The position numbers and the translations under genes are program-made. Under the pieces are notes generated by a model. That model saw only the letters and a list, made by a program, of their open reading frames with translations, had not been told where the DNA came from and ran no database searches. Positions 1-28,479 of a stretch of DNA of 64,000 nt are shown in pieces. The DNA comes from a virus. The number at the start of each line of letters is the position of its first letter. Within the stretch, counting starts at the first letter, position 1. Location: positions 1 to 64,000 of the IMG/VR virus record IMGVR_UViG_3300044624_001054. One strand, given 5' to 3'.

Positions 1-502
1 GGAGGCAAAATTCTAAACTAGATATTCTCGCATCTAATATATTTTCATTGAAGCCTCCAATTTTTTTATAAACATCTTTATTTAAAATAAATGCACCGCC
101 TGGAAAAAAATCATTACTTTGAGATTTTATTGGTTCCTCTAATATTTCATTGTTTATAATAATATTTAATATATTTTCATCTATTTTATCAAGTCTGAAA
201 ATTCTTAAAAATGGTTTAACCACTATATTTTTATTTTTAATAATATCCAATGAACTATTTATTGATTCATTGGGGAGAATGCAATCAGCATTTATTAAAA
301 TAACATCTTCTTCTTCATATTCTGTGAATGCTAAATTTCTTGATTTAGAAAGATTAAATTGATCATCCCCTGAATCTAATAATACAATTTCATAATTAAA
401 CTGTTTGTAATATTTTTCTACAGTATCTTTCATTGCAGATTTAGTATTAGTAGAATCTTCTCTAAAAGGAATAAAAATTTTTTTATTTGTAGATAATGTC
501 AA
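1..502 (-). CDS. Glycosyltransferase, GT-A fold, partial (C-terminus beyond window)
   Basis: The reverse strand stays open from about 502 to the window edge. The peptide begins near KKIFIPFRED, has an NADCILP segment that could be the metal-binding DxD-like site, and ends with FFPGGAFILNKDVYKKIGGFNE, typical of family 2-like glycosyltransferases and galactosyltransferase-type proteins. No ATG is available after the upstream in-frame stop. A TTG at 502-500 preceded by GGAAGG is the best start, giving a short overlap with the preceding gene. Sugar and acceptor are unknown. It is the most distal visible member of the glycosyltransferase/oxygenase cluster. Confidence 0.7.
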   Translation of the reverse strand, partial: MTLSTNKKIFIPFREDSTNTKSAMKDTVEKYYKQFNYEIVLLDSGDDQFNLSKSRNLAFTEYEEEDVILINADCILPNESINSSLDIIKNKNIVVKPFLRIFRLDKIDENILNIIINNEILEEPIKSQSNDFFPGGAFILNKDVYKKIGGFNENILDARISSLEFCL

Positions 503-1637
503 TTTCAGGGACCTTCCACCAGGGTAAACATTTTAATATATCCAAGTCTATACCAGAATATTTTTGAAACGAAATTGTGCTTCTTGGCAGGTAGCCAAAG
601 TATTCTTTTTTCAATATTAAATTTTTTATTATTTCATTTTCATGCAGGACAGCAGGGTTATTTATTTTTAAATTTTTTATATGTTTTATATAAAAAAGAT
701 GCTGGCTTTCCACTGATTCATATGATTCTATATTTTTACTTTCTCTTCCCTGTTCTCCTGAACTTAGATATTTATGGAAGAAAAAAACATTTTTTGTCCA
801 CACAAAATTATAGCCTCTTGCATAAGATAAAGAAGACTGATAAAATTCTTCTAACCAAAAATTTATTCTACCATCTAAATTAATATTAAATTTAGTTACC
901 CAAGGATCTGCTTCCGTAAAAAGAAAGTGAGCGGAAATTTTTTTTGCAGGAAGATATCTACCATCTATTAGGTGATTTAAAATATTATTTTCCACATTAT
1001 TTAAATTAACATCATTTGGTAGTGGAAATATATAGTTATCGTTACTATAATTTAATGCTCGGGGGCCGTTATAATCAAAGAACTGCCACAGTGAAATTTT
1101 ATTATTTTTATTAAAAACAATATCTTTATATTCAAAGATATCTAATTCTTCTACGTTAGAAGAATATGATTCCTTATTAGTTATAACATCTAAATCTTTT
1201 TTATGGTTATATGGCAGCAAGTATGTGGTTAAAATTATTCTTTTACCAAAATATTTTTTTGCATCTTCATATTCATTTATTAATTTTTCATCCCAATCCT
1301 TAACAAAAGAAGTATGAGAATCTAAAGATAAATAGTAGTCTTCATTTGAATAATGTTTTAACGGTTGAAGCCTTCCGTTGCCAACGCCAGGAGAATTTTC
1401 CCAATAAACAATATCAAATTTTATGCTCTTATTAAAATTATTTATTTTTTTTTCTAGACTATAAAAAAAGGGAGCGCCTTCAGAATTTAAATCTTTTTTT
1501 TTCCAAAAAATGGTGGTTCCAACAGTTATTCTTTCTGGATTTTTTGCGGACTCAAAAAGTCTTTCTACTGTTGGAAAATATTCCTTATCGTTCATAGTAG
1601 GTATAGATACAAAAATAGTTTTATTTTTATCAGTCAT
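483..1637 (-). CDS. GlcNAc-transferase-like (GT60/PF11397-type) glycosyltransferase
   Basis: This 384-residue protein has the layout of the GlcNAc domain family, which includes the Skp1 hydroxyproline GlcNAc-transferase. IFVSIPT lies at residues 8-14, followed by a segment of the type TVERLFESAKNPERITVG. The diagnostic YYLSLDSHTSF lies around residues 101-111, and its DSH is the expected metal-binding motif. The start overlaps the stop of the upstream paralogue-family gene by 8 nt, which indicates translational coupling in one long operon with a prolyl-hydroxylase-like gene and a collagen-like fibre gene. The family call is from motifs; the sugar and acceptor are inferred. Confidence 0.72.
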   Translation of the reverse strand: MTDKNKTIFVSIPTMNDKEYFPTVERLFESAKNPERITVGTTIFWKKKDLNSEGAPFFYSLEKKINNFNKSIKFDIVYWENSPGVGNGRLQPLKHYSNEDYYLSLDSHTSFVKDWDEKLINEYEDAKKYFGKRIILTTYLLPYNHKKDLDVITNKESYSSNVEELDIFEYKDIVFNKNNKISLWQFFDYNGPRALNYSNDNYIFPLPNDVNLNNVENNILNHLIDGRYLPAKKISAHFLFTEADPWVTKFNINLDGRINFWLEEFYQSSLSYARGYNFVWTKNVFFFHKYLSSGEQGRESKNIESYESVESQHLFYIKHIKNLKINNPAVLHENEIIKNLILKKEYFGYLPRSTISFQKYSGIDLDILKCLPWWKVPEIDIIYK

Positions 1638-2322
1638 AATTTTTTTTCACCCATATATTTTTCCTATAACCAGAATAAAAATAATCAAATACTTTATTGT
1701 TTGTTCCTCTATGAAGGATTTCGTCCCATTTTTTTATCTCTGATTTCCAATTTTCTCTTTTAAAGAAAATCATTTGATACATAGGAGTTCCTTTTGGAAT
1801 AATCCCCTCAAAATCTTTTTTAACAAAAAATTGTATCTTTCCACCTACGGGCCAACGATCTGTATCAATAATTCCACTTATTGTATAAAATGGCAGATTA
1901 TTTTGATTTAATGGATGTACATATAATGTTGACCATCCTGGTGGAGTTTTTGGCTCCCATTGCGTCCACCAAGCCATCATTTTATCGTGATATCCTTGTT
2001 CTGGAAATATAGGATTTTTTTCATGTCCGTCTACAACTAGTTGCGCTCCTACTGTAGGGTAATGATATTCAACCTTTGAACCAGTCACAGAAATGGCTAA
2101 ATCACACCATGTTTCTTGTATATATCCAGTAGTAAATGAGTCTAACATAGGCATACATTGCTTAATAGTGGTATTGGCTCTTTTTGAATTAATTCTAGGT
2201 TTAGATCCTGTTGAAAATGGAGGAGTTTTTTTATACCAATCAGGAACGTATAGTCGCGCTGGTTTTGGGGGATCTATAAAATGACTAGCATATTCATTTT
2301 GTGGAATCCATTCAACTTTCAT
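1630..2322 (-). CDS. Tandem paralogue 3 of an uncharacterised phage family (possibly DUF6065)
   Basis: A 230-residue protein starting at MKVEWIP. An in-frame TTG lies 24 nt upstream, but the ATG has an AAAGGA ribosome site and sits in a TAATG overlap with the preceding stop. Shared features with the next two genes are a VPDWYKK segment near residue 25, a C-x-P-x-x-D segment, a P-x-G-x-S segment, LPFYTISG followed by a DTD, and a C-terminal FEGIIPKGTP plus FKRENW. The length fits a family I recall as DUF6065, but this is not certain. Function is unknown. Confidence 0.8.
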   Translation of the reverse strand: MKVEWIPQNEYASHFIDPPKPARLYVPDWYKKTPPFSTGSKPRINSKRANTTIKQCMPMLDSFTTGYIQETWCDLAISVTGSKVEYHYPTVGAQLVVDGHEKNPIFPEQGYHDKMMAWWTQWEPKTPPGWSTLYVHPLNQNNLPFYTISGIIDTDRWPVGGKIQFFVKKDFEGIIPKGTPMYQMIFFKRENWKSEIKKWDEILHRGTNNKVFDYFYSGYRKNIWVKKNYD

Positions 2323-3062
2323 TATGAAAAATCCTTTCTCTCCCAAACTTCTTTTTTATATCCTGAAGAAGCGTGTCTTCTAACCTTACTGTTTAATATA
2401 TTATACTCCATTGGGTCCATAAATCTAGAATCTGATTCCCAGTTATCTCTTTTAAAAGGAATTATACTCATCATGGGGGTTCCCATTGGAATTAAACCCT
2501 CAAATCCTTTTTTTAAAAAGAATGGGTGATTTCCAGTTGCATACCATTTATCAGTATCCATAACTCCAGATATTGTATAAAATGGTAGGTCTGGCCTATT
2601 TATTGGATGAGTATAAAACGAACTATATCCATCTGGAGTTTGGGCCTCCCAATGAGTTAACCAAGTAAACTCAAGTTGGTAGTAGTCTTCTGGAATAGGC
2701 ATAGAATGTTTGTTTGGCCCCCCTCTATACCCTATTAAGTCAAACATGCCGTTACAATGTATTTTTATATCGTTGTCGTCAAAGCCCCTCTCAACAACGA
2801 GGTCGCACGGGGTTACAGCCACATAACCAAAAGTTAGACTGTCCAAAAATGGCATACAAAACTTAAAGGTTGAGTTATTGTTTCCATTATGTTCATCAAA
2901 CGTTGGCTTTTTAGTTTTATAATTAGACATATTTTTATACCATTCTGGAAATATTTTTTTAGATGGTACTGGGGCTGTTGTCGATTTAAATGTAAACTCA
3001 TCCTTAGCAACAAAGGTTATATTTTGATTACTAGAAGTTATCCTATTCTTTTTTTTAAACAT
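2322..3062 (-). CDS. Tandem paralogue 2 of an uncharacterised phage family (possibly DUF6065)
   Basis: A 246-residue protein with the same motif order as its neighbours: FPEWYKN, a CMPFLDSLTFGY-type segment, TPDGYSSFYTHPINR, LPFYTISGVMDTD, FEGLIPMGTP and FKRDNW. Both ends form TAATG junctions with the adjacent paralogues, so the three are almost certainly co-translated. No signal peptide or membrane segment is visible. Conserved Trp, Asp and Pro-Gly motifs suggest a folded enzyme or binding domain rather than a repeat protein. Function is unknown. Confidence 0.8.
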   Translation of the reverse strand: MFKKKNRITSSNQNITFVAKDEFTFKSTTAPVPSKKIFPEWYKNMSNYKTKKPTFDEHNGNNNSTFKFCMPFLDSLTFGYVAVTPCDLVVERGFDDNDIKIHCNGMFDLIGYRGGPNKHSMPIPEDYYQLEFTWLTHWEAQTPDGYSSFYTHPINRPDLPFYTISGVMDTDKWYATGNHPFFLKKGFEGLIPMGTPMMSIIPFKRDNWESDSRFMDPMEYNILNSKVRRHASSGYKKEVWERKDFS

Positions 3063-3766
3063 TATTTAAAAATCTTCCTATTCCACCATTTTTTCTTATA
3101 CCTATTGATAAAATAACTATCGTGAAAATTGTTTAATGCTAAATATTCTTTTTCATCATGTTCACCAATTTTTGTTTTCCAACTTTCTCTTTTGAATGGA
3201 ATTACCTGAGCGATGGGAGTCCCATGTGGAATTATACCTTCAAAGTCTTTTTTTATAAAAAATGGAAAATTAACTGTTAAAGGAAAAGTATCAGTGTCTA
3301 CTACTCCCTCCATGATTTCAAATGGGAGGTCTCTATGATTTGGAGTAGTAAATAGGACGCTGTATCCTTTAGGAGTTTTTATATGCCAAGGATTTATCCA
3401 TTTTAATATAGATTTATCATAACAATCTTTTATTGGATATAACGGTGCCTGCTCTAGTGCATGACCTTCTACCGCCCTTGGTACATCCCCCCTTTGTACA
3501 CTAAAATGATAACTAACAGAATTATTTTTACGTTCTACATATACATCTGTCCATAATTTTATTATATATCCCTGAGATATTGCATCTAGGACTGGTATAC
3601 ATTTTTTTAAAGTTAGATTCAAATTACCCCCTTCTGCCTCCACTTTCCCGCCAATAAAAGAATCTGTTTTTTTATACCATTCGGGCAAATTATTTATTGA
3701 AGGCGAGGGCATTTCTGCGACATGAGATAATGACGGCTCTGTTAAAGTAAAAGTTATTTCTTTCAT
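3062..3766 (-). CDS. Tandem paralogue 1 of an uncharacterised phage family (possibly DUF6065)
   Basis: A 234-residue protein with LPEWYKKTDSF, KKCIPVLDAISQGY, TPKGYSVLFTTPNHRDLPFEI, VVDTD, FEGIIPHGTPIAQVIPFKRESW. It is the first of the three tandem copies in transcription order. Its ATG overlaps the stop of the upstream glycosyltransferase-like gene by 4 nt (ATGA). The copies are similar in motif order but diverged in sequence, so the triplication is old or was assembled from different sources. Confidence 0.8.
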   Translation of the reverse strand: MKEITFTLTEPSLSHVAEMPSPSINNLPEWYKKTDSFIGGKVEAEGGNLNLTLKKCIPVLDAISQGYIIKLWTDVYVERKNNSVSYHFSVQRGDVPRAVEGHALEQAPLYPIKDCYDKSILKWINPWHIKTPKGYSVLFTTPNHRDLPFEIMEGVVDTDTFPLTVNFPFFIKKDFEGIIPHGTPIAQVIPFKRESWKTKIGEHDEKEYLALNNFHDSYFINRYKKKWWNRKIFK

Positions 3767-5001
3767 TTGTCTATCCTATTCCAATGTAGAGAGTTTTCAT
3801 TTAACGAGAAGTTGTACATAGATATACATAAGTTTATTAGACTATCAATACTATTTAAAATTTTAGTTTTTCTTACTTTAAATTTTTTATCTTCCCAGTC
3901 TACAGCAAGAATATAGTTAAAAAAATCTTTTTGCTTGGGTTCCATTAATAAATAAATTTTGTTTGTTTTCTCTATAATATTTTTTCTTAATTTTAACTGT
4001 TTTTCAAGCATGTCTTCGCTGCTATATATTTCAGATATTTTCTTTCTTTTAGGTGATAAAAATTTTTTATCACTATATAAATGATATATAGGTAAATATC
4101 TAAGAGAAAAAACTTGACATTCATTATTTAATAAATTAATAAATGTATGAAAGTCAAAATCTTCTTCATCTATTAGGTAGTCCTCAGTCACATTATTTTT
4201 AAAATATTCTTTGGCGAGACCGAATATAAAATAAGATGATAGTCCGAAAGATCTAGACGCAAACTCATCGTCCACAAACTTCCTTTTATGGAATTTAGGA
4301 AAGCCGTTTTGTAATAAAAATTTCTCGCACTCATCTATCTCTCTAATATCTGATCTTAAACTGTGACTGGTTTCTGAATCTGCGATAACTGATACTATTT
4401 CTTTTTCAGAAATAAAGTCATGGTACCCACAAAATGGAATATGTGCCGAGTCGTGGAGTTCTCTTTGCATGGACATATTTGTCATATGATTTGTAAAATA
4501 TACATAACCAGGGATTACCTCATCATGTGGCAGCCACCCTCTTGGGAATGCTGTGAAAATTAAATTATTTGGAATAATGTATGAAAAAGATTGATGCTGT
4601 TTAATTAAAATATCGTCCCAGAACGGGTCAAATTCCGATGCCGATGAAATAGAAAGGTAATAATCTTCTTTGTTGTAATAAAGATCTGAAGATTTTTTCA
4701 ATTTTCCATAGGTAATATCCTCAGAGTCATTACTGATATATGTAACATTAAGGCTGTTTTTCATATTTTTATGTAAATTTAATAATGTTTCAATCCAGCC
4801 CTCATTATTGTGAACAACTGTTACACCAATAAATATATTTTCTGGTCTCTTGGCATTTAACATCAAAGAGTTGATGGTCCTGATGACATTATCATCACCA
4901 TAGGAAACTATGGATACAAAGATAGATTTTTGTAAACGACTACTTTCATCTAAATCTAGATTAGTTCTTGAATAACTATCAAATCTTTTTTTCTTATTCA
5001 T
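3763..5001 (-). CDS. Second GlcNAc-transferase-like protein, catalytic motif altered
   Basis: A 412-residue protein starting at MNKKKRF in a TAATG junction with an AGGAT site; an 11-codon upstream extension is less likely. IFVSIVSYGDD near residue 27 and LMLNAKRPENIFIGV match the same family as the gene at 483-1637, as does EDYYLSISSASEFDPFWDD near residue 112. The acidic DSH motif of the family is replaced by SSA, so metal-dependent activity may be lost or changed. It lies directly downstream of the prolyl-hydroxylase-like gene. Confidence 0.65.
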   Translation of the reverse strand: MNKKKRFDSYSRTNLDLDESSRLQKSIFVSIVSYGDDNVIRTINSLMLNAKRPENIFIGVTVVHNNEGWIETLLNLHKNMKNSLNVTYISNDSEDITYGKLKKSSDLYYNKEDYYLSISSASEFDPFWDDILIKQHQSFSYIIPNNLIFTAFPRGWLPHDEVIPGYVYFTNHMTNMSMQRELHDSAHIPFCGYHDFISEKEIVSVIADSETSHSLRSDIREIDECEKFLLQNGFPKFHKRKFVDDEFASRSFGLSSYFIFGLAKEYFKNNVTEDYLIDEEDFDFHTFINLLNNECQVFSLRYLPIYHLYSDKKFLSPKRKKISEIYSSEDMLEKQLKLRKNIIEKTNKIYLLMEPKQKDFFNYILAVDWEDKKFKVRKTKILNSIDSLINLCISMYNFSLNENSLHWNRIDK

Positions 5002-5642
5002 TAAGATCCTATCGCCCAAGGTGGTCCCATCCATGTAACTATAGCATATTTTATCCCTTCTAGCACTGGACGAGCGCTATGAGTATAGGCGTAGTTCGAT
5101 GGGAAAAGAATTATTGATGGATTTTCTGGTTTAACTGTAACATTAAAATTAACAAAATGTGTCCCCCCAGAAACATATTCTTTAGGGTTTAATAGAATAA
5201 GGCCAGAGACTGTTCTCCAATCATGACCTGGGCCTTGGTCCGAATGGGCTTTATATTGATTTCCAGGTGAATATTTTAATACCTGGAAACCTTCGTCAAA
5301 ACCTATTTCAACCCCGTATTTCTTTTCATATATCTTCACACACGAATCATAGATTTTAATAATGTATTCGTAGGCTTCGTTAATTTTGCAATCTGGTGTC
5401 TTGCAATCATGTCTACTGAAATTCATTGTTTGATTTGATCGATACATTCCTCCATCTGAGGAATTAATACCAGCCCCAACTCTGGCATTACTGTACTTTG
5501 CAGGACAATTAACATTTTTGTCACAATCTTCAAAAATTTTTATTATTTTTTTTGATGCTTCTTCAGATATTACATTATCAAATATTTCAATGCATCCGGC
5601 CTCTGTATAGGAGTTAAAAATATCTTTATTCATTTTACTCAT
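5001..5642 (-). CDS. 2OG-Fe(II) oxygenase, prolyl 4-hydroxylase-like
   Basis: A 213-residue protein with the complete iron site of 2-oxoglutarate dioxygenases of the prolyl 4-hydroxylase type: HSD at residues 133-135, distal His at 188 (YTHSARPV) and a Lys at 198 that would bind the 2-oxoglutarate carboxylate. The preceding LKYSPGNQYKAHSDQ and the SGGTHF segments are typical of the double-stranded beta-helix core. It likely hydroxylates proline in a protein. It overlaps the degraded oxygenase gene upstream (ATGA) and the glycosyltransferase gene downstream (TAATG). The collagen-like fibre protein about 2 kb upstream is the obvious candidate substrate. Confidence 0.85.
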   Translation of the reverse strand: MSKMNKDIFNSYTEAGCIEIFDNVISEEASKKIIKIFEDCDKNVNCPAKYSNARVGAGINSSDGGMYRSNQTMNFSRHDCKTPDCKINEAYEYIIKIYDSCVKIYEKKYGVEIGFDEGFQVLKYSPGNQYKAHSDQGPGHDWRTVSGLILLNPKEYVSGGTHFVNFNVTVKPENPSIILFPSNYAYTHSARPVLEGIKYAIVTWMGPPWAIGS

Positions 5643-6274
5643 CTCAGGTAGGAGAACATGTAGGCACTTTCATTATCTTCTAATAAACTATCTTTTATTA
5701 AGAAATCTTTTCCACCATTAAAAAATGTTCTTAAAAATATTTTTCTACCGTCTATTATATTTGATGTAGAGTTTGAATACAAGAAACTTGCAGGATATAT
5801 TGTAATGCAATTATTTTCATTTTTTTTAGAGGCATCTTTAAAATATAACCATTTTTTATCGCCTCCAGTATAATTATTATTTAATTCAATTTCTGCAACA
5901 AGGCTCCTGCTAAACGGGATAGAATTATTTAAATTGTCTGATTTGCAAGGATTAAATAAATTTTCTTTTTCTCCTGGATTTAATACATTTAATACTATTC
6001 TTTCTTGCCATTGAAGAGTGTGTACAGATTCTTCATATAAATCTACATACTCTGCCAAACACACAAGCAATTCTTTTTGAATATTTTTAATAATATCTGT
6101 TTTATTTTTTTTGTATAAAATATTCCATAAAATATTTTTTACATTTAAAGATTTTAATGAATTATTATATTCTTCACTTTCAAATATTTCATAAAAAACA
6201 TTTATATCTTCATCTGATAAAAAAAATTTATTTTTAAACACTGCTACCCCTGGAGGTAAGTTGTTATCTATCAT
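5639..6274 (-). CDS. Degenerate 2OG-oxygenase-like protein, iron ligands not visible
   Basis: A 211-residue protein with the outline of the same fold: LQWQERIVLNVLNPGEKENL, then a broken metal site (NPCKSDN where H-x-D is expected), a YTGGDKKWLYF segment and an ITIYPASFLYSN segment lacking the distal His. It retains GRKIFLRTFF at the end. This suggests a pseudo-oxygenase that may serve as a partner or substrate-binding subunit for the intact enzyme encoded next. It is coupled to both neighbours by short overlaps. The family call is moderate. Confidence 0.55.
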   Translation of the reverse strand: MIDNNLPPGVAVFKNKFFLSDEDINVFYEIFESEEYNNSLKSLNVKNILWNILYKKNKTDIIKNIQKELLVCLAEYVDLYEESVHTLQWQERIVLNVLNPGEKENLFNPCKSDNLNNSIPFSRSLVAEIELNNNYTGGDKKWLYFKDASKKNENNCITIYPASFLYSNSTSNIIDGRKIFLRTFFNGGKDFLIKDSLLEDNESAYMFSYLR

Positions 6275-6746
6275 TTAATTCCCTAAAAATAATAATATTG
6301 TGATTAGATATATTTACTATATCTGTATTTTTAATTTCTGCCATTAAATTTATTTTGTATTCACCCATTTCTTTAAATTTAAATTTATAATAATAAGAAT
6401 ACTTTCCATCAGGACTAAACTCTACGGACTCTATTTTTACTTTTTTTTCAAAATTATTTAAATCTATTTTATAAACATCAGCGAATACTCTGACATACTC
6501 TTTTTTTTCCGCCCATTCATCCATAAAAATTATCGAAATTTCTGAATTTTCTGGACCGACCTCGTTTTCAATCCACGCTCCGTATGCTTCGGGAACATTT
6601 ATTGTACTAACTTCATTATGATTATATTCAACATCTTTTAATATATCAGATGGTCCGTGGATTATTTGGTCTATATTATTTTGTGCTGCCGTAATAAGAT
6701 GCTCTGAAGCATCTAAATCTTCTGGAATATATAAATAAAGTTTCAT
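6264..6746 (-). CDS. Hypothetical protein between fibre and oxygenase genes
   Basis: A 160-residue acidic protein beginning MKLYLYIPEDLDASEHLI. The C-terminal half has a strand-rich pattern (YYYKFKFKEMGEYKINLMAEIK) like an Ig-like or beta-sandwich domain. No recognised family. It starts 3 nt after the stop of the fibre gene at 6750-7433 and overlaps the pseudo-oxygenase gene, so it belongs to the appendage-modification operon. Confidence 0.7.
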   Translation of the reverse strand: MKLYLYIPEDLDASEHLITAAQNNIDQIIHGPSDILKDVEYNHNEVSTINVPEAYGAWIENEVGPENSEISIIFMDEWAEKKEYVRVFADVYKIDLNNFEKKVKIESVEFSPDGKYSYYYKFKFKEMGEYKINLMAEIKNTDIVNISNHNIIIFRELNDR

Positions 6747-6749
6747 TTT

Positions 6750-7433
6750 TTATACCACAAACTGTAGGGCTGATCCACTTGTATATCCTAACGTATTAAT
6801 ATTAATTGATGAAGGTTTTATTTTACTAGAACAATATATTGCTACTCCGCCACCCGTTAGATATGCCGTACCATTATTAAATCCATCTGCATAAATAGTT
6901 CCCCTTCCAGAGACTCTTCTTGCTGATACTACCACTACTCCTCCACCAGGATTAGTTGAATCCCCAGCGCCACCATTTAAAGGAAGGGGAGTTTGCTGTA
7001 TAGCATTTAAAATATACCCTTCTACGGCATATTCTGGTCGGTCAAAGTAGTCTGCCCCTCCGAAACTAGCAGATGGGCCAAATGCATTATAACTTGCGCT
7101 ATTTCCACCAAGGCTATTTGAGACTGAAGCCGTAAAACCTCTCCCTAAAGACCCTACAGCATTAGAACCATTTTTAAGCCCTAGACTAGTTGATGAATCT
7201 TGATCTGTAGATCCATTAAAAAGCAAAATATTTCTAACAAATACCCTATATCCAGCAGTATTCACATGGACACCAGAATTAATAGTTAAGTTATAATAAT
7301 ACATATCTCTAGCAAGAGAAAAGTTAACAGATGCAGTAAAATTTCCATCTTTTCCAGAACCATATATTGGGTCGGGAATTAAAGATACAGCATTTGTATT
7401 ATTTGCATCTCCACCTATATTTATAATTGGCAT
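6750..7433 (-). CDS. Glycine-rich tail appendage protein, short paralogue
   Basis: A 227-residue protein. Residues 25-70 (GSGKDGNFTASVNFSLARDMYYYNLTI and on to GYRVFVRN) are homologous to the N-terminus of the collagen-like protein encoded just upstream. It also shares the VVVSARRVSGRGTIYADG segment that precedes the collagen stretch in that protein, but has no Gly-X-Pro run. Its ATG is in a TAATG junction. It looks like a truncated or core-only version of the larger fibre. Confidence 0.75.
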   Translation of the reverse strand: MPIINIGGDANNTNAVSLIPDPIYGSGKDGNFTASVNFSLARDMYYYNLTINSGVHVNTAGYRVFVRNILLFNGSTDQDSSTSLGLKNGSNAVGSLGRGFTASVSNSLGGNSASYNAFGPSASFGGADYFDRPEYAVEGYILNAIQQTPLPLNGGAGDSTNPGGGVVVVSARRVSGRGTIYADGFNNGTAYLTGGGVAIYCSSKIKPSSININTLGYTSGSALQFVV

Positions 7434-9304
7434 TATTGGATTCCTTCATTTTTAATTATTATAACAGTTCCAGAACTTGCTCCGTTGCTGCCACCTGAAC
7501 CTGCTGCTGCACGAATATCAATGTTTATTGGAGGATCTTTTTCTGTGATGACTAAAACTACTCCTCCACCACCCGCGTATCCAGCAATCCCAGGGCTACC
7601 AGGGATTCCTCCCTCGGCAACGCCGCCAACCCCTCCTGCTCCTCCTGCTCCTCCTGCGCCTCCAGGCCAGAATTGCTCAGGTTGATTTGCATTTTGCTGG
7701 GCACTAAATTCTAATTGATTGTTAAAAGTTGATGGTTGAAATGCTGATGGATAAGTTTGCACCAAAGGGTACGCTACAAAAGTAAAAGTGCCGTAATTAG
7801 TATATGCTGGGGTGTAGGAGGAGGGTATAAAGGGGTTTACTCTAGTTTCAACGAATGGATTTAAACGGCCTTCAGCAGTTCTAACCTCGTTCTGAGCATT
7901 CTCACGAGCCTCAAGAGTTCTAATCTCATTTGATGTATTTAACCTGGCTTCAACTTGTCTAATCTCAGTAGGTGGACCTAGCCTAGCCTCACGCGTTCTA
8001 ATCTCAGTAGGTGGGCCTAGCCTAATCTCATTTTGGGCGTTGACCCTAATTTCGTTTCCACCAAACTGTCGGGCGGGGTTGCGTGCGAATGGATTAATTC
8101 GAATTTGATTAGCAGCATTCAATCTTGCTTCATTAAGATTTACTCTTCCTTCAACCAATCTTGCTTCATTAAGATTTACTCTTCCTTCGACCAATCTTAT
8201 TTGATTGGTAGCATTAACTCTTCCTTCGACTAATCTAACTTCATTTGCGGTATTCACTCTTGCTTCAACTAATCTTACTTCATTGGCGGACAGTCTTTGC
8301 TCAGTTCCTCCAGATGAAGGTGTAAATACTGCTGGAGAAAAAAATACATTGTAGTTAGTTGTTGGAGTTGCAGGATATGTTGGTACAACATTATAGAATG
8401 TATATCCTGGTGTGAACACTCCAACATAATAATTAAAAGCATATTCAGTTATATATGTGTATGCTGCTTGAAAAAGTCCTGGGGCGGGACTTCCAGGGTT
8501 TCCAGGACTTCCAGGATTTCCTGGAGTTCCAGGATTTCCGGGACTTCCAGGAGAGCCTGGAGAACCCCCTTTTCCGTCAGCGCGAATAATTCCATATCCA
8601 GTAATATTCCTAGCAGATATAATAACTACGCCGCCTCCTGCCCCACCAACACCGCCCAAACCAGCGGCTCCCTGGGTACCACCTATTCCAGCATTTCCTG
8701 GGGAACCAGTGTTTCCTGGATAACCCTTTCCTCCCGCTGCACCGACAATATCAGCGCTTGCTGTATACGATCCTGGGGAGCCTTCACTTCCAGGGCTTCC
8801 AGCGCTTCCTGAGTATTGAAATGAAGCGGTTGATGGTGCTGATCCAGATGGCCCTGTCAATCCTCCTGATCCCCCCATTAAAAATTTAATAGTAGAGTCT
8901 ACACTATTAATTTTATATCCGGCTATAGCCTGTGAAAAATTATAAAATTCTGCTTCTCCAAAAAAATTTTCACCAGGATTTAGTCCGCCGTCCCCACCTA
9001 GGGTATCGGAGGCTTTTATTCCTGGTAAAGCGCCGCCTAAAAGTGTTCCTGCCGATGTTGTATTTGACAATCTTCCTATTACAGATGTTGGATCGGCCAT
9101 ATGTAAGGTATCTTTTACAAAAATTCTATATCCGTTTGTGTCTATTTGAGCATTTGCTAAAATAGTTAAATTATTGTAATACATGTCTCTGGTTAAAGTT
9201 GTATTACTTACAACAGTAACATTGCCGTCTGTTCCAGGGCCATATACCGCAAGACCTCCCCTGGTAGCAATTCTACTAGGAGTAGGTATTTGTTCAAAAG
9301 ACAT
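7433..9304 (-). CDS. Collagen-like tail fibre/appendage protein with Arg-Glu repeats
   Basis: A 623-residue protein. The N-terminal module (residues 22-70) is shared with the neighbouring short protein. Gly-X-Y repeats run through about residues 168-226 and 246-275; the second block is made of GSP, GNP and GTP triplets, so nearly every Y position is proline. Residues 341-492 hold about a dozen short repeats of the type NEVRLVEGRVN. A second glycine-rich stretch (about 550-585, GGAGG and GIPGSPG) precedes the C-terminus. The collagen-like part should form a trimeric rod. The neighbouring prolyl-hydroxylase-like gene fits modification of the Y-position prolines. A structural role is inferred from location. 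Confidence 0.8.
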   Translation of the reverse strand: MSFEQIPTPSRIATRGGLAVYGPGTDGNVTVVSNTTLTRDMYYNNLTILANAQIDTNGYRIFVKDTLHMADPTSVIGRLSNTTSAGTLLGGALPGIKASDTLGGDGGLNPGENFFGEAEFYNFSQAIAGYKINSVDSTIKFLMGGSGGLTGPSGSAPSTASFQYSGSAGSPGSEGSPGSYTASADIVGAAGGKGYPGNTGSPGNAGIGGTQGAAGLGGVGGAGGGVVIISARNITGYGIIRADGKGGSPGSPGSPGNPGTPGNPGSPGNPGSPAPGLFQAAYTYITEYAFNYYVGVFTPGYTFYNVVPTYPATPTTNYNVFFSPAVFTPSSGGTEQRLSANEVRLVEARVNTANEVRLVEGRVNATNQIRLVEGRVNLNEARLVEGRVNLNEARLNAANQIRINPFARNPARQFGGNEIRVNAQNEIRLGPPTEIRTREARLGPPTEIRQVEARLNTSNEIRTLEARENAQNEVRTAEGRLNPFVETRVNPFIPSSYTPAYTNYGTFTFVAYPLVQTYPSAFQPSTFNNQLEFSAQQNANQPEQFWPGGAGGAGGAGGVGGVAEGGIPGSPGIAGYAGGGGVVLVITEKDPPINIDIRAAAGSGGSNGASSGTVIIIKNEGIQ

Positions 9305-18200: not shown

Positions 18201-18522
18201 TATATTCTTCTGTAGGTAATGAATTAGTTTGAAACCATAAAGATATAGTAGAGTCTCTGTTGTCATAATACTCAGAGAACCTATCCATGGCAGGAATAGA
18301 TAAGCCTACTGCGGAACTAGTAAACTCTAGTAAGGTCCCACCACCAAAAACCATAGGGTTCTTTACTAGATTAGTAGCGGCTATATTAATTGATGCGCTG
18401 TATGCATTCTCATCATTTGTGAAAAAATTGATTGGCTTTGATACAGAAGATGATTCGGTTATATCATCCAGGGGCCATACAATTTCGGCTGAGTCGCGCA
18501 AAATAAGTTGGCTATAGGACAC
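15208..18522 (-). CDS. Giant LamG-like tail protein
   Basis: A 1,104-residue protein with a GTG start preceded by GGAGGAT. It contains at least two or three concanavalin/LamG-type modules, seen as STISLWFQTNSL, HHIVLSRNRSGLVMVLDG, LKLWLDSRFVNGLNK and FNIYSVIVNSGSARFYLNGQ. Tyr/Ser/Asn-rich linkers run throughout. LamG domains bind glycans, so a role in host surface recognition is likely. It begins 10 nt after the nrdJ stop, placing a metabolic gene at the head of the fibre operon. Confidence 0.8.
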   Translation of the reverse strand: MSYSQLILRDSAEIVWPLDDITESSSVSKPINFFTNDENAYSASINIAATNLVKNPMVFGGGTLLEFTSSAVGLSIPAMDRFSEYYDNRDSTISLWFQTNSLPTEEYTIFKKRGYENIGLFIKNNYLIFRYGTSASYNELSVDFVNVKEPHHIVLSRNRSGLVMVLDGVSYSSKDGESIRLEKDASHANNNYIDFYGPPNGSWNIDAPTFYPNILNTNVAKRHYVYGLGKSVPEKTFYSRGGSLYNFTTIYTERLSDINWDYPDEWKITELVDLNNDEFGLGPVKFTGPHTYSFDNNIDTSSNKYKFSSSVANTEASYIEINKLFSKLDSGQYPFFVKFKLDGELPAKYLSQRLISIGRIANEEVLKFDLYNNNGTYQVKVLAINSSSVAFNISNVSASLSFYVGMKFDGATSLYFAQSGSAIQTASFNYTSASSTGLDPLLPYLPWTYETLLRIGSSLNYDETSFNNNVYGVEQYLGSVQRFLVAQTDFSASSNYSYIENYDKPRYEFNYDSSLNRFKVKTYGHGSFNLHAINFSEYISDTNQRIGANYIGIGYPFTESSSFVNFYATLISYSGSVINPQIMLSENNYLNFLNNVDLSDKYLKIDFEIYSDDSLYYPPRVKYFKMQTFKTTNNSVVLKDDAGPSYTLYPSASSVYLPEIRYTPSIFITEDSGIKITRTYADFTENILPKPLNPLTINGLKLWLDSRFVNGLNKINPNDDTRLTSWKDLSNNNNNAIQTTSSVAPVFRTQSLNLLRMNQLDGGEGDDTSFIIPTNSTISTNIEGAISGTRGVQVIPNGSSTNSYIDVSFNTASITVFPSQSYSVVGSIKMFKPQTASSLHQNARKIVVYTTDGVTETLSASSIAANNSASVYSLSAVFTTTASTVSARILFYNGSYDASDSVYWDNLGLYPVTASSSQYQWVQPLTLRDNPVVKFDGYKTFLQSSASISQPYTLYVVGRTFNKSVILGNSSSALLYSKDGSYYFNSGSAAQMSAINKEFNIYSVIVNSGSARFYLNGQSEDSQYVGFNNLTNLNIGKGIIPGEVASYLSGDICSILLFEDDHDSQTRTTIENWLDQSFNLLPTISVITPLDDLYTSQYGEYYDS

Positions 18523-18532
18523 CTATCCTCCA

Positions 18533-20467
18533 TTATGCCGAAGTGATATCAACCGTTTCGCAGTAACCTGCTGCACATGCGAGATCCTGGCTGCCCGTTG
18601 TACCATCTGAAGATTCATAGTAGGTAAGCCAGGTCCAATCGATATCTTTCGGAGTTTTTTCTAATAATTCATTATACTCCGATTCGGTTATGTCCTGATA
18701 GGGGGCTTGTTGATATGTGTGGTCGGAATGAGGCAAGAATGACACTCCAGATAATTCATCCATATGATCATACACCCAAGCACCTACTGCCATCCATTCA
18801 TGTTCCTTTACAGAGACAGTAATAGAAGGCTTATGCTCAGACCAATGACGCTGATATATTAACCATAACTCAAGATGTTCAATTGCGGACAGATCTGTTC
18901 TAGTTAGGGCACCTTTAGGTGCTTTAATAGGAAATGTAAAAACAGTTGTATCTGATGGCTTCATTACGTCTGGTTCTGCTAATATTCCAAAGTCTTTAAG
19001 CATTGTAGTGATAGGATCTTTGTTATCACCACGAATGGTACGGGCATAGAATTCATTGTGCCAGGGATGCATTCCAGATGATACGCCGACTAACTGAGAT
19101 ACTGTTCCAGAAGGCTTTACACAGGTGATAGCAGCAGCAGGATTAATGCCAAGGTCGGCGGCATATACAGCATTTATTTCTACTGCCTTTTCCCTCATAG
19201 CGTCTAGCCACTCAATTAGTTTGTCGTGTCCTTTACTTCCACTAAGAACTTTATGGCCTAATTGTCCAGTTAGTGAAACTCCTAGAAGTCTTTCATCCTC
19301 ACAATTTTTTTGCCATTGCTTACGAAGATACTTGAATCTAGTAAATGTTGACTGGAATGTTCCAAGAATAGTGGCAACCTCAACCTTTTCTAAAAGATCT
19401 TCTAAGGTATCGCTTTCTCTAACAACAATTTCAGTAAGGTTGCAGAACTCAAACGGCTTCAGGATGATCTCTGAGCATGGATTAGTGCCAAACTCTGCTG
19501 TTGCATCTCTCCGCCCATTCTTTGATGCCACCTTGCGAGCGGCATCTCTAGAAAAGATACCTCTTTCACCACTCTTAGAATCATACAGAGACTTCCACTC
19601 AGCCATGAATACTTCCATGCTTGGCTTTGTCTCATAGACGGCTGAATTATTTGCAAGGGCTCTTTGTCCGTTATATTCCCACCAAGATCCTGATTTTGCT
19701 GCCGCCATATTTCTATCCTCAAGATCTGATAGAGAAATCATTGCAGATCTACGAACCCCTCCTACTACAACAACTTCAGCGATTTTGCACATAATGTCGT
19801 GGGCCTCTAATGGAGTAAGTTTTCTACCAGAGGCAGTTTTGATAGTTTCTACAGTAAATTTAAACAATCTATCTAATGGCTCTGGACCCGATGCCCTGCC
19901 ACCAAATGTTTTTAGTCTTGCTCCTGCAGGTCTAACATTTGACATATCCCATGAAGGAACTTGGCCCTGATATAAAAGAGCGATAAGTTCTCTTAGAGCC
20001 TTTGCCCAACCAGCCTTAGAATCATCTACAACAATAACAGTTGATGAATCTTCAAAATGCTCATTGACTACTGGAAGTTGATTTACATACTTTGACTCTA
20101 CTGAATATCCAACACCTGTGCCACACATAAGGATATACATGGCCTCATCAAATGACCTTAGGGAATCTACGGGAAGATAGGAGCAGTTATATAGACAGGT
20201 ATTGTCTCTTTCTAGCGCTGGGCCTGCAGTCATTAGGCCGCGCATAGATGGCATAACCTTAGTCTCTAGAATAAAGTTTTGTATTCTATCTTTAAGTTCT
20301 TTGCTAACCTTGTAGTTGTTGTGTTTATCTAGTGACTCGCATACATATTCTACAAATCTGCTAACAGTTTCGTGCCAATCCTCTCTACGGTTTTCTTCTT
20401 CTATCCATCTTGCATAACGTGTCTTATGGATAACTTGCTGGTAGGCGGTTGGTAGTGAAACTGTCAT
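18533..20467 (-). CDS. nrdJ: Adenosylcobalamin-dependent ribonucleotide reductase, class II
   Basis: 644 residues starting MTVSLPTAYQQVIHKTRYARW. An upstream TTG/GTG extension is rejected because AGGAG sits just before this ATG. Recognisable elements are GTGVGYSVESKYV, the NPCSEI catalytic loop, EFCNLTE, the PSGTVSQLVGVSSGMHPWH segment and a C-terminal DLACAAGYCE that likely carries the redox cysteines. The size and single subunit fit the monomeric B12-dependent enzyme type. It makes deoxynucleotides for phage replication without oxygen dependence and needs host or environmental cobalamin. It sits apart from other replication genes. Confidence 0.93.
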   Translation of the reverse strand: MTVSLPTAYQQVIHKTRYARWIEEENRREDWHETVSRFVEYVCESLDKHNNYKVSKELKDRIQNFILETKVMPSMRGLMTAGPALERDNTCLYNCSYLPVDSLRSFDEAMYILMCGTGVGYSVESKYVNQLPVVNEHFEDSSTVIVVDDSKAGWAKALRELIALLYQGQVPSWDMSNVRPAGARLKTFGGRASGPEPLDRLFKFTVETIKTASGRKLTPLEAHDIMCKIAEVVVVGGVRRSAMISLSDLEDRNMAAAKSGSWWEYNGQRALANNSAVYETKPSMEVFMAEWKSLYDSKSGERGIFSRDAARKVASKNGRRDATAEFGTNPCSEIILKPFEFCNLTEIVVRESDTLEDLLEKVEVATILGTFQSTFTRFKYLRKQWQKNCEDERLLGVSLTGQLGHKVLSGSKGHDKLIEWLDAMREKAVEINAVYAADLGINPAAAITCVKPSGTVSQLVGVSSGMHPWHNEFYARTIRGDNKDPITTMLKDFGILAEPDVMKPSDTTVFTFPIKAPKGALTRTDLSAIEHLELWLIYQRHWSEHKPSITVSVKEHEWMAVGAWVYDHMDELSGVSFLPHSDHTYQQAPYQDITESEYNELLEKTPKDIDWTWLTYYESSDGTTGSQDLACAAGYCETVDITSA

Positions 20468-25859: not shown

Positions 25860-26003
25860 ATGAGGTTCACTAAGGCTACCGTTCGCACTATCGTCAAGAA
25901 TGCGCGTTGCAATGATTGTGGTGAGAAGCACTACGATTCTATGGCTATCGTCAATGACGAGATCATGTGCGCTAATTGCCATAACGCTAAGGCGTTCGCC
26001 TAA
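25860..26003 (+). CDS. 47-residue zinc-ribbon-like protein
   Basis: Starts MRFTKATVRTIVKNARC after GGAGG 8 nt upstream; earlier in-frame ATGs lack a ribosome site. CNDCGEKHYDS and CANCHNAK give two C-x2-C pairs about 20 residues apart, a compact zinc ribbon. Function unknown. Confidence 0.75.
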   Translation: MRFTKATVRTIVKNARCNDCGEKHYDSMAIVNDEIMCANCHNAKAFA

Positions 26004-26060
26004 CAACTAAATATTCCTAGGCAAATAAACCGCTTCGGGCGGGTGAGCCCTAGGCCAGAC

Positions 26061-26082
26061 TGTCAGACCCCCCTGCTAGGGT
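26061..26082 (+). promoter_or_regulatory. Early promoter motif
   Basis: TGTCAGACCC, then CTGC-TAGGGT. Extended -10 type. Leader of about 26 nt with AAAGGGG-type site before the ATG at 26109. Confidence 0.7.
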
Positions 26083-26108
26083 AGGGGGTAGAAAGAAAGG
26101 GGTAGCAC

Positions 26109-26291
26109 ATGGCTACTAATGGATACCGCGCCGTGCGGATCGACGGCTTCGGATACGCTCCGATTGCATACACCCGTTGGACTACCCGCGAGGAGGCTAT
26201 GGCATACGCTCGCTATGCACAGCGTACTCGCGTGGGCGAGTGGGCCATACAGTCCAAGCGCAAGGTCATCCATAGGGTGGTGGGAGCATGA
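26109..26291 (+). CDS. 60-residue hypothetical protein
   Basis: MATNGYRAVRIDGFGYAPIAY, basic C-terminus (QSKRKVIHRVVGA). Predicted alpha/beta with a Trp-Thr-Thr-Arg-Glu-Glu-Ala turn, TREEAMAYARYAQ. The stop overlaps the next start (ATGA). No family recognised. Confidence 0.7.
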   Translation: MATNGYRAVRIDGFGYAPIAYTRWTTREEAMAYARYAQRTRVGEWAIQSKRKVIHRVVGA

Positions 26292-26413
26292 TCGGCTTCG
26301 CACGCATTGACTACGCCGCTGCAGCACAGCAGCGTGAAGATTGGAAGGCGTGGCTGCAGGCTAAGGCTGCAGAGCGTAGACTGTCAGACCCTAGTGCTAA
26401 GGTGGAAGCATGA
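26288..26413 (+). CDS. 41-residue protein whose 3' end contains a promoter
   Basis: MIGFARIDYAAAAQQRED, an amphipathic helix rich in Ala, Gln and Arg, preceded by GGGAG. The last 11 residues, RLSDPSAKVEA, are encoded by the promoter motif that drives the next gene. Both ends are ATGA overlaps. Confidence 0.65.
   Translation: MIGFARIDYAAAAQQREDWKAWLQAKAAERRLSDPSAKVEA
26382..26403 (+). promoter_or_regulatory. Early promoter motif, leaderless type
   Basis: TGTCAGACCC, then GTGC-TAAGGT, inside the upstream gene. Six nt separate the hexamer from the ATG at 26410, so transcription should start at the ATG itself. Confidence 0.7.
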
Positions 26414-26505
26414 GAACATTCGCGCAGCACGCGCTATCATTCGTCATCATCGGCGGTATCCTTATCGCCATGGCAATCGCTGGTGGAATAGAGGGAGCAT
26501 TCTAA
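26410..26505 (+). CDS. 31-residue single-pass membrane peptide
   Basis: MRTFAQHALSFVIIGGILIAM and on to GGIEGAF. One hydrophobic segment of about 18 residues. No ribosome site, but it sits 6 nt after a -10 hexamer, fitting leaderless translation. Its stop overlaps the next ATG (TAATG). Confidence 0.6.
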   Translation: MRTFAQHALSFVIIGGILIAMAIAGGIEGAF

Positions 26506-26780
26506 TGATTACCCGTGTAGAGTCCTACGGAACTAGCAACCTCATCAATGCTAAGGCTGCCCTCGCGCATCCCATGGCAGATGAGGTGTCTATCGCTCTA
26601 GGTGATGGAGCATACGCACGTTTTCCGCATACCGTCGAACTTGCATTCTTCAAGAATGGCGAGTGGGTTACTGAGCCTCTGCCAGAGTTGGCAGACTACT
26701 ACTCGCATGAAGTGTACCCCTACGTTTCCCTCATCGACTTCGCAATGTTCATGGAGAACTTCGGAACGGGGGAGGAGTGA
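26505..26780 (+). CDS. 91-residue hypothetical protein
   Basis: Starts MITRVESYGTSNLINAKAALAH in a TAATG junction with GGGAG upstream; a much longer open frame upstream is spurious. It carries EVSIALGDGAYARFPHTVELAFF and an acidic C-terminus. Small proteins with this pattern are frequent in actinophage early regions. Function unknown. Confidence 0.75.
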   Translation: MITRVESYGTSNLINAKAALAHPMADEVSIALGDGAYARFPHTVELAFFKNGEWVTEPLPELADYYSHEVYPYVSLIDFAMFMENFGTGEE

Positions 26781-26848
26781 TCATCATCATGGGAATCGTG
26801 TCTGCATTCCTTCTACTTGGAGTAGCCATAGGTCTAAAAAACCCTTGA
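26777..26848 (+). CDS. 23-residue membrane peptide
   Basis: GTG start in an overlap with the preceding stop, GGGGGAGGA just before. Sequence IIIMGIVSAFLLLGVAIGLKNP is a single transmembrane helix. The stop lies within the stem of a terminator. One of three similar-sized hydrophobic peptides in the region. Confidence 0.55.
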   Translation: MIIIMGIVSAFLLLGVAIGLKNP

Positions 26849-26864
26849 AAATAAAGGGTTTTTT
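26836..26864 (+). terminator. Rho-independent terminator
   Basis: AAAACCCTT, GAAAAT loop, AAGGGTTTT followed by further T residues. Stem of about 9 bp with a U tract; it closes the small operon. Confidence 0.75.
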
Positions 26865-26887
26865 CGCACTTGACAAATTGCCAAGTG

Positions 26888-26960
26888 CGGGCCGGGTCCG
26901 CAATTTGGACATATCACCTAGGTTACGATTACGTTACGATGATCACGAATCACGGCATGT
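26888..26960 (+). repeat. Intergenic module copy B
   Basis: GCGGGCCGGGTCCGC, GGACATATCACC, GGTTACGATTACGTTACGA, then ATCACGGCA. It is preceded by CTTGACAAATTGCCAAG. No gene between 26849 and 27090. Confidence 0.6.
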
Positions 26961-27045
26961 CGATTTGACAGACATATTGGACATATCACCGTTACCAACC
27001 TGTTATGAAAGTTGTCCGATTTGTATAGGTTTTGGATTAGGTAAA

Positions 27046-27067
27046 TGTCAGTCCCCCATGATAGGTT
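27046..27067 (+). promoter_or_regulatory. Early promoter motif
   Basis: TGTCAGTCCC, then ATGA-TAGGTT. Leader of 23 nt with AAAGGAA before the ATG at 27091. Confidence 0.72.
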
Positions 27068-27090
27068 GTACCTAGATAGAAAGGAACGAA

Positions 27091-27279
27091 ATGAACAACA
27101 CTCTCCATTCCCACCTCGTCTGTTGCTTCTGCGACAACGAGATCGGCTTCGATACCCGCGTGTGCGGAACGTGTCATGACTATAAGGGCATCATGACCGT
27201 GGAAGCCTTTGAGGACTACCTCAAGGTCGCCTATGATTGCGATTGCTTGTCAGACCTAGATGATAAGGTGTCAGCATGA
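27091..27279 (+). CDS. 62-residue zinc-ribbon protein whose 3' end contains a promoter
   Basis: CCFCDNEI near residue 11 and CGTCHDYKG near residue 26 make a C-x2-C/C-x2-C zinc site. The C-terminal residues CLSDLDDKVSA are encoded over the promoter of the next gene. Ribosome site AAAGGAACG. Function unknown. Confidence 0.75.
   Translation: MNNTLHSHLVCCFCDNEIGFDTRVCGTCHDYKGIMTVEAFEDYLKVAYDCDCLSDLDDKVSA
27248..27269 (+). promoter_or_regulatory. Early promoter motif, leaderless type
   Basis: TGTCAGACCT, then ATGA-TAAGGT inside the upstream coding sequence; 6 nt to the ATG at 27276. Confidence 0.7.
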
Positions 27280-27554
27280 TTGATTCAGTAGCACGCATCG
27301 TTAGCACTCCCCTTCGTGAGTGCCCCCCGCTCTTTGAGTACGTTCTCAATGAGGGACCTGTCATGCAACTCGCTTGGCTTTCAGTAGAGCCAGAGGATGA
27401 TGATTGGTTTACCGTCACGTTTGTCGCCAATGGCGCGACGATCAAGTCACGCGGTGACGCGGAAACTCTTTGGCTTAGGCCAGAGGATAAGGATGATCCT
27501 GTGATTCAGGCGGAACTGATTACAGGTCTGGCTTCGATGGGGTTGGAGTTCTAA
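27276..27554 (+). CDS. 92-residue hypothetical protein
   Basis: MIDSVARIVSTPLRECPPLFE. Acidic and beta-rich (DDDWFTVTFVANGATIKSRGDAETLWL), with a C-terminal helix. No ribosome site; predicted leaderless. It ends in a TAATG junction with the next gene. Confidence 0.7.
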   Translation: MIDSVARIVSTPLRECPPLFEYVLNEGPVMQLAWLSVEPEDDDWFTVTFVANGATIKSRGDAETLWLRPEDKDDPVIQAELITGLASMGLEF

Positions 27555-27757
27555 TGCCTAACGTAAAAGTCATTGACCGCCGTCCATTCGATATCAATAT
27601 GACCATGCAATGGAATGACATTCAGGAATTGCTCACACGCGCAGATCGTATGTGGGCATGTGCAGATAATCCAGCAGACTTTCAGGTGCTGGAACACATA
27701 GAGCAAACGCTGCAAGGTCTCGCAGATTCTATTCGAAAAAGACTTGACAAATCCTGA
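27554..27757 (+). CDS. 67-residue helical hypothetical protein
   Basis: MPNVKVIDRRPFDINM, then a long helix (DIQELLTRADRMWACADNPADFQVLEHIEQTLQGL) and a basic end. Coupled to the previous gene. Function unknown. Confidence 0.68.
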   Translation: MPNVKVIDRRPFDINMTMQWNDIQELLTRADRMWACADNPADFQVLEHIEQTLQGLADSIRKRLDKS

Positions 27758-27761
27758 AAGA

Positions 27762-27831
27762 CGGGCCGGGCCGCGTTGTAAAAATGTTATATAAATAATT
27801 ACGTTACGACTTGACAAGTCACGGGAATTTT
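27762..27831 (+). repeat. Intergenic module copy C
   Basis: ACGGGCCGGGCCGCG, AT-rich stretch, ATTACGTTACGA, then GTCACGGGAATTTT. The latter part overlaps a good sigma-70-like promoter. Confidence 0.62.
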
Positions 27832-27839
27832 GATAGGTT
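27811..27839 (+). promoter_or_regulatory. Sigma-70-like promoter (TTGACA, 17 nt, TAGGTT)
   Basis: Perfect -35 and TAGGTT -10 at 17-nt spacing, the spacer containing TCACGGGAATTTT and lacking TGTCAGACC. It identifies TAGGNT as the -10 hexamer of the whole family. GAAAGGAGG follows before the ATG at 27862. Confidence 0.75.
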
Positions 27840-27861
27840 CGACCTGTCGAAAGGAGGCAGC

Positions 27862-27987
27862 ATGGGTTCTGTCATTATTCCCGTCGCGTGCGACTGGCAC
27901 GCAGTCTACTCCATCCATGAGGATGGCGTATGGTATGGCCTCTACTGCGAGGAGTGTGATGAAACCTACCCGCCTGTGGCGGAGTAG
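27862..27987 (+). CDS. 41-residue protein with C-x2-C
   Basis: MGSVIIPVACDWHAVYSIHED. C-D-W-H at residues 10-13 and YCEECDETY near 30 could form a zinc site with one His. Strong GGAGG site. Function unknown. Confidence 0.72.
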   Translation: MGSVIIPVACDWHAVYSIHEDGVWYGLYCEECDETYPPVAE

Positions 27988-27998
27988 GCCCGGCTCGC

Positions 27999-28020
27999 TG
28001 TCAGACCCCCGTGATAGGCT
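27999..28020 (+). promoter_or_regulatory. Early promoter motif
   Basis: TGTCAGACCC, then GTGA-TAGGCT; 27-nt leader with AAAGGAT before the ATG at 28048. Confidence 0.72.
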
Positions 28021-28047
28021 TACGATACGTTCTACGAAAGGATCGAA

Positions 28048-28179
28048 ATGGCTCGCTGTGAAGACTACCCGTGCTGTGGCCACACCGATGGCCTTGGCTG
28101 CAACTATGTCCCCGATATGGACTTCTACTATGAGCAGGCCCGTCGCCGTCTTGATGACGACTACTATGACTACTACTGA
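28048..28179 (+). CDS. 43-residue Cys/Tyr-rich protein
   Basis: MARCEDYPCCGHTDGLGC has four cysteines and one His in 18 residues; the rest is acidic and ends in DDDYYDYY. I recall similar short MARCEDYPCCGH proteins in actinophages, of unknown role. Confidence 0.75.
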   Translation: MARCEDYPCCGHTDGLGCNYVPDMDFYYEQARRRLDDDYYDYY

Positions 28180-28196
28180 AAGGCCCCGGCCCAGAC

Positions 28197-28218
28197 TGTC
28201 AGACCCCTATGCTAGTCT
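28197..28218 (+). promoter_or_regulatory. Early promoter motif
   Basis: TGTCAGACCC, then ATGC-TAGTCT. Leader of 28 nt with AAAGGAC before the ATG at 28247; the leader closely resembles that of the preceding gene. Confidence 0.7.
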
Positions 28219-28246
28219 TACGACACACCTACGAAAGGACACGAAA

Positions 28247-28369: not shown

Positions 28370-28374
28370 AGTCA

Positions 28375-28450: not shown

Positions 28451-28457
28451 GCCTGAC

Positions 28458-28479
28458 TGTCAGACCCCTATGGTAAGGT
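28458..28479 (+). promoter_or_regulatory. Early promoter motif, leaderless type
   Basis: TGTCAGACCC, then ATGG-TAAGGT, 6 nt before the ATG at 28486. Confidence 0.72.

Follow-up and report, generated by a model that had tools for sequence, protein, structure and literature searches.

A candidate fibre-tailoring operon joining a prolyl 4-hydroxylase-like gene to a collagen-like fibre gene in uncultured tailed phages

We analysed the first 64,000 nucleotides (bases 1–64000, here called the window) of the IMG/VR virus record IMGVR_UViG_3300044624_001054, which comprises 106,615 bases in total, and concentrated on an operon at its start in which a gene for a Gly-rich, collagen-like protein, fib1, lies together with a gene resembling prolyl 4-hydroxylases (P4H). 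The window belongs to a tailed phage, as judged from matches to terminase, UvsX-like recombinase, DNA polymerase and ribonucleotide reductase, and tail-fibre matches adjoin the operon. The operon covers positions 2–9304 on the minus strand, neighbouring genes are spaced by -34 to +3 nt, and the last gene is cut by the contig start; the tight overlap described in a first-pass annotation, which had been made from the sequence alone, was thus confirmed. In order of transcription it contains fib1, its partner fib2, a small gene, a degenerate P4H paralogue, the P4H gene, GT60b, the three DUF6065-like genes D3, D2 and D1, GT60a and a fragment of a GT2-type glycosyltransferase gene. The DUF6065-like genes, fib2, the small gene and a low-complexity repeat region of about 270 residues in fib1 are additions to what the first-pass annotation had described.

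The fib1 gene (7433–9304, minus strand) encodes a protein of 623 aa with two conserved halves and a hypervariable low-complexity middle at about residues 276–545, which in the window consists of NEVRLVEGRVN-like repeats. Among relatives this middle is made of unrelated low-complexity repeats, which looks like fast repeat turnover between conserved halves. The fib2 gene (6750–7433, minus strand) encodes a smaller paralogue of fib1 without the Gly-X-Y insert and is conserved as its partner. Five Gly-X-Y runs with 39 triplets in total are present in fib1, and as the first-pass annotation had noticed, proline takes the Y position: 15 prolines are found in Y and 0 in X. The main Gly-X-Pro run, GKGGSPGSPGSPGNPGTPGNPGSPGNPGSP (8486–8575, minus strand), contributes nine Y-prolines and no X-proline. 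Two Y-prolines each come from a run of 13 triplets at 8627–8743, from a run of 5 triplets at 8765–8809 and from the two C-terminal runs together (7556–7663), all on the minus strand. With 16.7 bits the protein stays below the Pfam Collagen cut-off of 27.2 and its longest Gly-X-Y run is 13 triplets, so that fib1 shows neither the Pfam match nor the long unbroken Gly-X-Y stretch expected of a collagen triple helix. Because of its make-up and the tail-fibre genes upstream, we regard fib1 as a putative virion fibre.

The P4H gene (5001–5642, minus strand) encodes a 2-oxoglutarate (2OG)-Fe(II) oxygenase that matches PF13640 with E 3.7e-11 (44.3 bits, cut-off 27). The iron triad and the 2-oxoglutarate-binding lysine (H133, D135, H188 and K198) are intact and invariant across 20 relatives, and H-D-H-K was found in every canonical P4H member examined. 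In profile searches against solved structures the best matches were 3itq (E 1e-13), 5c5t (E 4e-10) and 2jig (E 1e-7), which we take to be the P4Hs of Bacillus anthracis, chlorella virus PBCV-1 and Chlamydomonas, respectively; all of them rank above PiuC. The relation to known P4Hs is weaker when the single sequence is used (E 0.0015). By similarity the enzyme is compatible with a peptidyl-proline hydroxylase. The adjoining degenerate paralogue (5639–6274, minus strand) has oxygenases as homologues, but the Pfam search gave no oxygenase match for it, and in the window its active-site positions read F/P/N/K. The Fe-binding H-x-D is absent in 7/7 members of the window clade and kept in 18 homologues of other clades.

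A similar pairing is seen for the glycosyltransferases. GT60a (483–1637, minus strand) matches PF11397 with E 1.3e-24 (87.8 bits, cut-off 21) and has its DSH motif at residue 106 (1314–1322). GT60b (3763–5034, minus strand) also lies above the cut-off (E 8.5e-14, 52.2 bits), with SSA in place of DSH, and both Asp and His are lost in 6/6 orthologues. Since the H-x-D of the P4H paralogue and the DSH of GT60b are both lost clade-wide, the P4H and GT60a each have a conserved companion copy that is probably inactive. The truncated GT2-type gene at 2–502 (minus strand) matches PF10111 with E 7.9e-6, slightly below the Pfam cut-off, and phrog_1721 with E 1.2e-14. The enzyme set named in the first-pass annotation, i.e. 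an intact and a degenerate P4H, two GT60-type genes and a further glycosyltransferase, is accordingly present.

In order to assess how constant this gene set is, we scanned IMG/VR with profiles of fib1, fib2 and related proteins. Taking the best 80 matches per scan, about 300 loci (here denoted by L and a number) were obtained, many of them repeats of one contig. Loci were called complete when a DUF6065-like gene was present, so that the universality of this gene is not independent evidence. A P4H-like gene occurs in 64/68 complete non-redundant loci, and a canonical orthologous P4H lies beside fib1/fib2 in 60/68. The oxygenases of L157, L159, L161 and L163 form a separate lineage in the tree with H-D-H-R and were left out of the canonical count. 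A fibre without the enzymes in most relatives, which the first-pass annotation had named as evidence against its proposal, was hence not what we found. Nearly all loci with enough sequence combine the fib1/fib2 pair with a P4H and with DUF6065-like genes, one to three in number. According to the added enzyme four module types can be distinguished: the window type with a GT60 pair and a dead P4H, a type with a single GT60, a type with an FkbM methyltransferase and an intact second oxygenase, and a type with a tryptophan-halogenase-type flavoenzyme (PF04820, E 3.7e-103 in L028). A search of cellular genomes returned only virus-like contigs binned in metagenome-assembled genomes, or weak matches. 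Among isolated phages, a search with the single P4H sequence found distant cyanophage oxygenases only, which had no fibre context in either of the two regions read, and searches with the single GT60a and fib2 sequences gave no matches.

Proline was then counted in the X and Y positions of Gly-X-Y runs of at least 5 triplets in 93 non-redundant fibres, a set in which the completeness rule slightly favours P4H-bearing loci. The fib1 proteins of the window clade hold 88 prolines in Y and 3 in X among 304 triplets; this Y-proline fraction (29%) is by far the highest. Values for the single-GT60 clade are 8 and 2 among 121 triplets, and zero Gly-X-Y runs occur in fib1 of the FkbM clade. Within the halogenase clade, fib1 proteins with a canonical P4H show 183 prolines in Y and 37 in X (1618 triplets) versus 10 and 11 (537 triplets) for those without (Fisher p 5e-4), and the median proline content of the fibres is 5.7% versus 3.5%. 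At the level of single loci, Y-prolines outnumber X-prolines in 48 loci with P4H and are fewer in 7; the corresponding numbers for P4H-less loci are 4 and 5. The bias is a property of fib1: other Gly-X-Y proteins encoded in P4H-bearing loci have the opposite preference (34 in Y, 770 in X, of 2858 triplets), and in the paired comparison fib1 is more Y-biased than its locus mates in 20/20 untied loci. This contrast is the strongest single result, although on its own it does not identify the enzyme responsible. Published viral collagens have low Y-proline and no Y preference (PMC3368898).

Outside the Gly-X-Y runs we compared observed Pro-Gly pairs with the number expected from local shuffling. 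An excess was seen in the window clade (69 vs 25) and in the FkbM clade (128 vs 59); the remaining values were 252 vs 218 for the halogenase clade with P4H, 23 vs 19 for the single-GT60 clade and 19 vs 19 for loci without canonical P4H. X-Pro-Gly is the minimal collagen-P4H site. An invariant Ala-Pro preceding the variable region of fib1 had been considered as a universal hydroxylation site, and was dropped as evidence because P4H-less loci retain it.

We consider it moderately probable that the operon is a fibre-tailoring cassette in which the P4H hydroxylates fib1 and GT60a then probably glycosylates it; the pairing of P4H and fibre itself is likely. A collagen-type prolyl 4-hydroxylase would act on fib1 prolines chiefly where Gly follows, which in the window clade would be the Y position of Gly-X-Y and the Pro-Gly of the variable repeats. 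GT60a, perhaps helped by the dead paralogues in binding the substrate, would then probably add a sugar to hydroxyproline or to Ser/Thr of fib1, and the outcome would be a stiffer fibre or a chemically diversified fibre tip. The hydroxylation step proposed in the first-pass annotation is supported by the conserved linkage and by the covariation. Its second step, addition of N-acetylglucosamine (GlcNAc) to hydroxyproline, fared less well and is retained as a proposal, with GlcNAc as an assumed donor sugar: a minority of the relatives carry GT60 genes, DSH is missing from one of the two copies in the window, and the family also contains Thr/Ser transferases. Its view of collagen triplets as the general P4H substrate proved too narrow, as the P4H is retained in the FkbM clade, whose fibres have no Gly-X-Y runs.

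Several observations weigh against the cassette reading. Most relatives have no GT60, and 17 relatives have a P4H without any Gly-X-Y run. Y-proline was also rejected as the explanation of P4H presence everywhere, given the absence of such runs from the FkbM clade. The canonical P4H changes state only two times on the halogenase tree, so that the loci are not independent. In phylogenetic regression an effect on proline content was found with lambda set to 0.9, which fitted best among the values tried (b 1.7, p 0.017), but it vanishes at lambda 1, and the effect on Y excess is non-significant after phylogenetic correction. The fibre of the P4H-less locus L269 still contains 5.7% proline, tandem repeats inflate the Pro-Gly z-scores, and the proline tests were devised after the pattern had been seen. 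The AlphaFold model of fib1 has a mean predicted local distance difference test score (pLDDT) of 49, and a Foldseek search with it gave no match in the PDB; the model is too poor to judge between collagen and polyglycine packing.

The Y-proline bias could instead be structural. fib1 might form an intrachain sandwich of the polyglycine-II type that favours Pro ahead of Gly, and the oxygenase might act elsewhere, on non-proline residues of the variable repeats, another virion protein or a glycan. The short Gly-X-Y runs broken by beta segments, the subthreshold Collagen score, the absence of the insert from the paralogous fib2 and the P4H of the FkbM clade would all agree with such a fold. However, loci devoid of a canonical P4H still possess long Gly-X-Y runs in which the Y bias is gone, and fibre proline drops in most of them; we regard the structural explanation as unlikely. 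Alternatively, the enzymes might make or modify a glycan or small molecule that is not on fib1, in capsid decoration or a change of the host surface, with the fibre gene standing next to them only because gene order is conserved. Oxygenase relatives that lie away from fibres in cyanophages, halovirus DUF6065-like genes near ribonucleotide reductase and baseplate genes, and nucleotide-sugar epimerase-like genes elsewhere in the window, outside the operon, point in this direction. We hold it to be quite improbable, given that one fibre pair and a P4H recur with differing tailoring enzymes (GT60, FkbM, halogenase) over very divergent loci and that the proline pattern of the fibre tracks the P4H.

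For the sugar step alone, the chance that GT60a acts on Thr/Ser of the fibre independently of hydroxylation falls just short of even, and such an activity would be compatible with hydroxylation by the P4H. GT60 includes the Skp1 hydroxyproline enzyme Gnt1 as well as the Trypanosoma cruzi polypeptide alpha-GlcNAc transferase of mucin-type glycosylation (PMC6939170; PMC8724618). The single-GT60 clade has few Y-prolines and the Thr-richest fibre middle (18.5%), and the X residues of Gly-X-Pro are mainly Ser, Asn and Thr. On the other hand it is the GT60-pair clade that has by far the most Y-proline, and since one clade tops Y-proline and the other Thr, both hydroxyproline and Thr/Ser are candidate acceptors.

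A wider reading extends past the claim of the first-pass annotation, and we put it forward tentatively, at less than an even chance. A large family of uncultured tailed phages would combine a hypervariable Gly-rich fibre with a near-constant hydroxylase and an exchangeable second enzyme (GT60-type, FkbM or halogenase-type), and the repeat composition of the fibre (Pro-Gly, Tyr/Asn or His-rich) would vary together with the enzyme set, akin to peptide natural products and their tailoring enzymes. Such a cassette suggests that fibre proteins with a possible role in host contact may be varied by phages in their chemistry as well as in their sequence.

Hydroxylation and glycosylation of viral collagen are already known from giant and algal viruses (PMC9614988; PMC9301287). 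If our interpretation is true, this would be the first phage protein with hydroxyproline, judging from the literature searched; the finding would also give a purpose to phage-encoded P4H-type oxygenases, whose viral use has been called cryptic (PMC9301287), and offer a testable enzyme-substrate pair. The P4H of PBCV-1 (PDB 5c5t, E 4e-10) is likewise virus-encoded and a profile relative of the phage enzyme, but PBCV-1 is a eukaryotic algal virus. No operon of PBCV-1 in which a fibre gene is linked to dead paralogues, GT60 or DUF6065-like genes is known to us. The virus's own, proline-rich proteins were proposed as substrates of its P4H (Eriksson 1999, as cited in PMC9301287). Mimivirus L230, a lysyl hydroxylase/glucosyltransferase, hydroxylates and then glycosylates the virus's own collagen (PMC9614988), as proposed here for the phage; there, however, lysine is modified instead of proline, by one bifunctional enzyme, in a giant virus and not a tailed phage. 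The Skp1 pathway, in which the P4H PhyA is followed by the GT60 enzyme Gnt1 (PMC6939170), shares the two-step logic of a P4H and a PF11397/GT60-type enzyme, but concerns a single site on a cytoplasmic ubiquitin-ligase subunit of protists, whereas the putative phage acceptor is a repetitive fibre. The collagen-like fibres of E. coli prophages (EPclPs) are also Gly-X-Y phage fibres, but have Pro chiefly in X and no P4H (PMC3368898). The collagen-type P4H of Bacillus anthracis, the best match to the P4H profile among solved structures (E 1e-13), is cellular and belongs to no fibre operon. Phage fibre tips of the S16 gp38 type resemble fib1 in having a Gly-rich conserved frame around hypervariable segments, which in these tips contact the receptor. 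No sequence or fold match between fib1 and such tips appeared in the Pfam and Foldseek searches, and gp38 is not known to be hydroxylated.

The DUF6065-like genes D3 (3062–3766), D2 (2322–3062) and D1 (1630–2346), all on the minus strand, are kept in all module types. We call them DUF6065-like because D1 and D3 reach only 15.9 and 19.2 bits against PF19541 (cut-off 26.6). The predicted structure of D2 (pLDDT 87.5) resembles 3ecy (Foldseek E 7.2e-4; target template modelling (TM) score 0.68, query TM 0.36), a partial match to the beta-clip fold of dUTPase/dCTP deaminase type which carries no implication of enzyme activity. The conserved motifs G-[IV]-V-D-T-D and GTPxxQ are reminiscent of dUTPase motifs. 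As three tandem paralogues, D1–D3 may assemble into a mixed trimer. Homologues with about 32% identity are carried by tailed viruses of haloarchaea (HF2/HRTV group; 26–28 kb of KC292020.1, our L071, and others); no annotated P4H lay beside the homologue in the single region read.

Halogenase-type genes are found behind the fibre pair in L028 (9173–10642), L043 (14703–16223), L050 (12712–14208) and many of L127–L305. Fibre middles of this clade are His-rich, with up to 36% His, and halogenation of the fibre is conceivable; no annotated fibre of the fib1 kind adjoins the halogenase genes of HTVC008M and P-SSM2. FkbM genes occur in L010–L020 and L089–L125 (e.g. L020, 15098–15805), and the fibres of this clade have Tyr/Asn-rich repeats (NPTNYGSN, YSYGYSYPGNN) and HxHxH segments. 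In L043 a TauD-family dioxygenase gene (18321–19289; PF02668, E 1.1e-51) lies downstream of a module in which two other 2OG oxygenases are already encoded, and in L305 and L211 parts of the module of fibre and enzyme genes occur twice on one contig. In the window, the small gene at 6264–6746 (minus strand), which has a weak, non-significant Ig-like match, is retained in the window clade. Positions 26001–34000 have a GC content of 0.50–0.53 compared to 0.27–0.46 elsewhere and carry tRNAs (Leu, Glu) on the plus strand, possibly representing a foreign segment.

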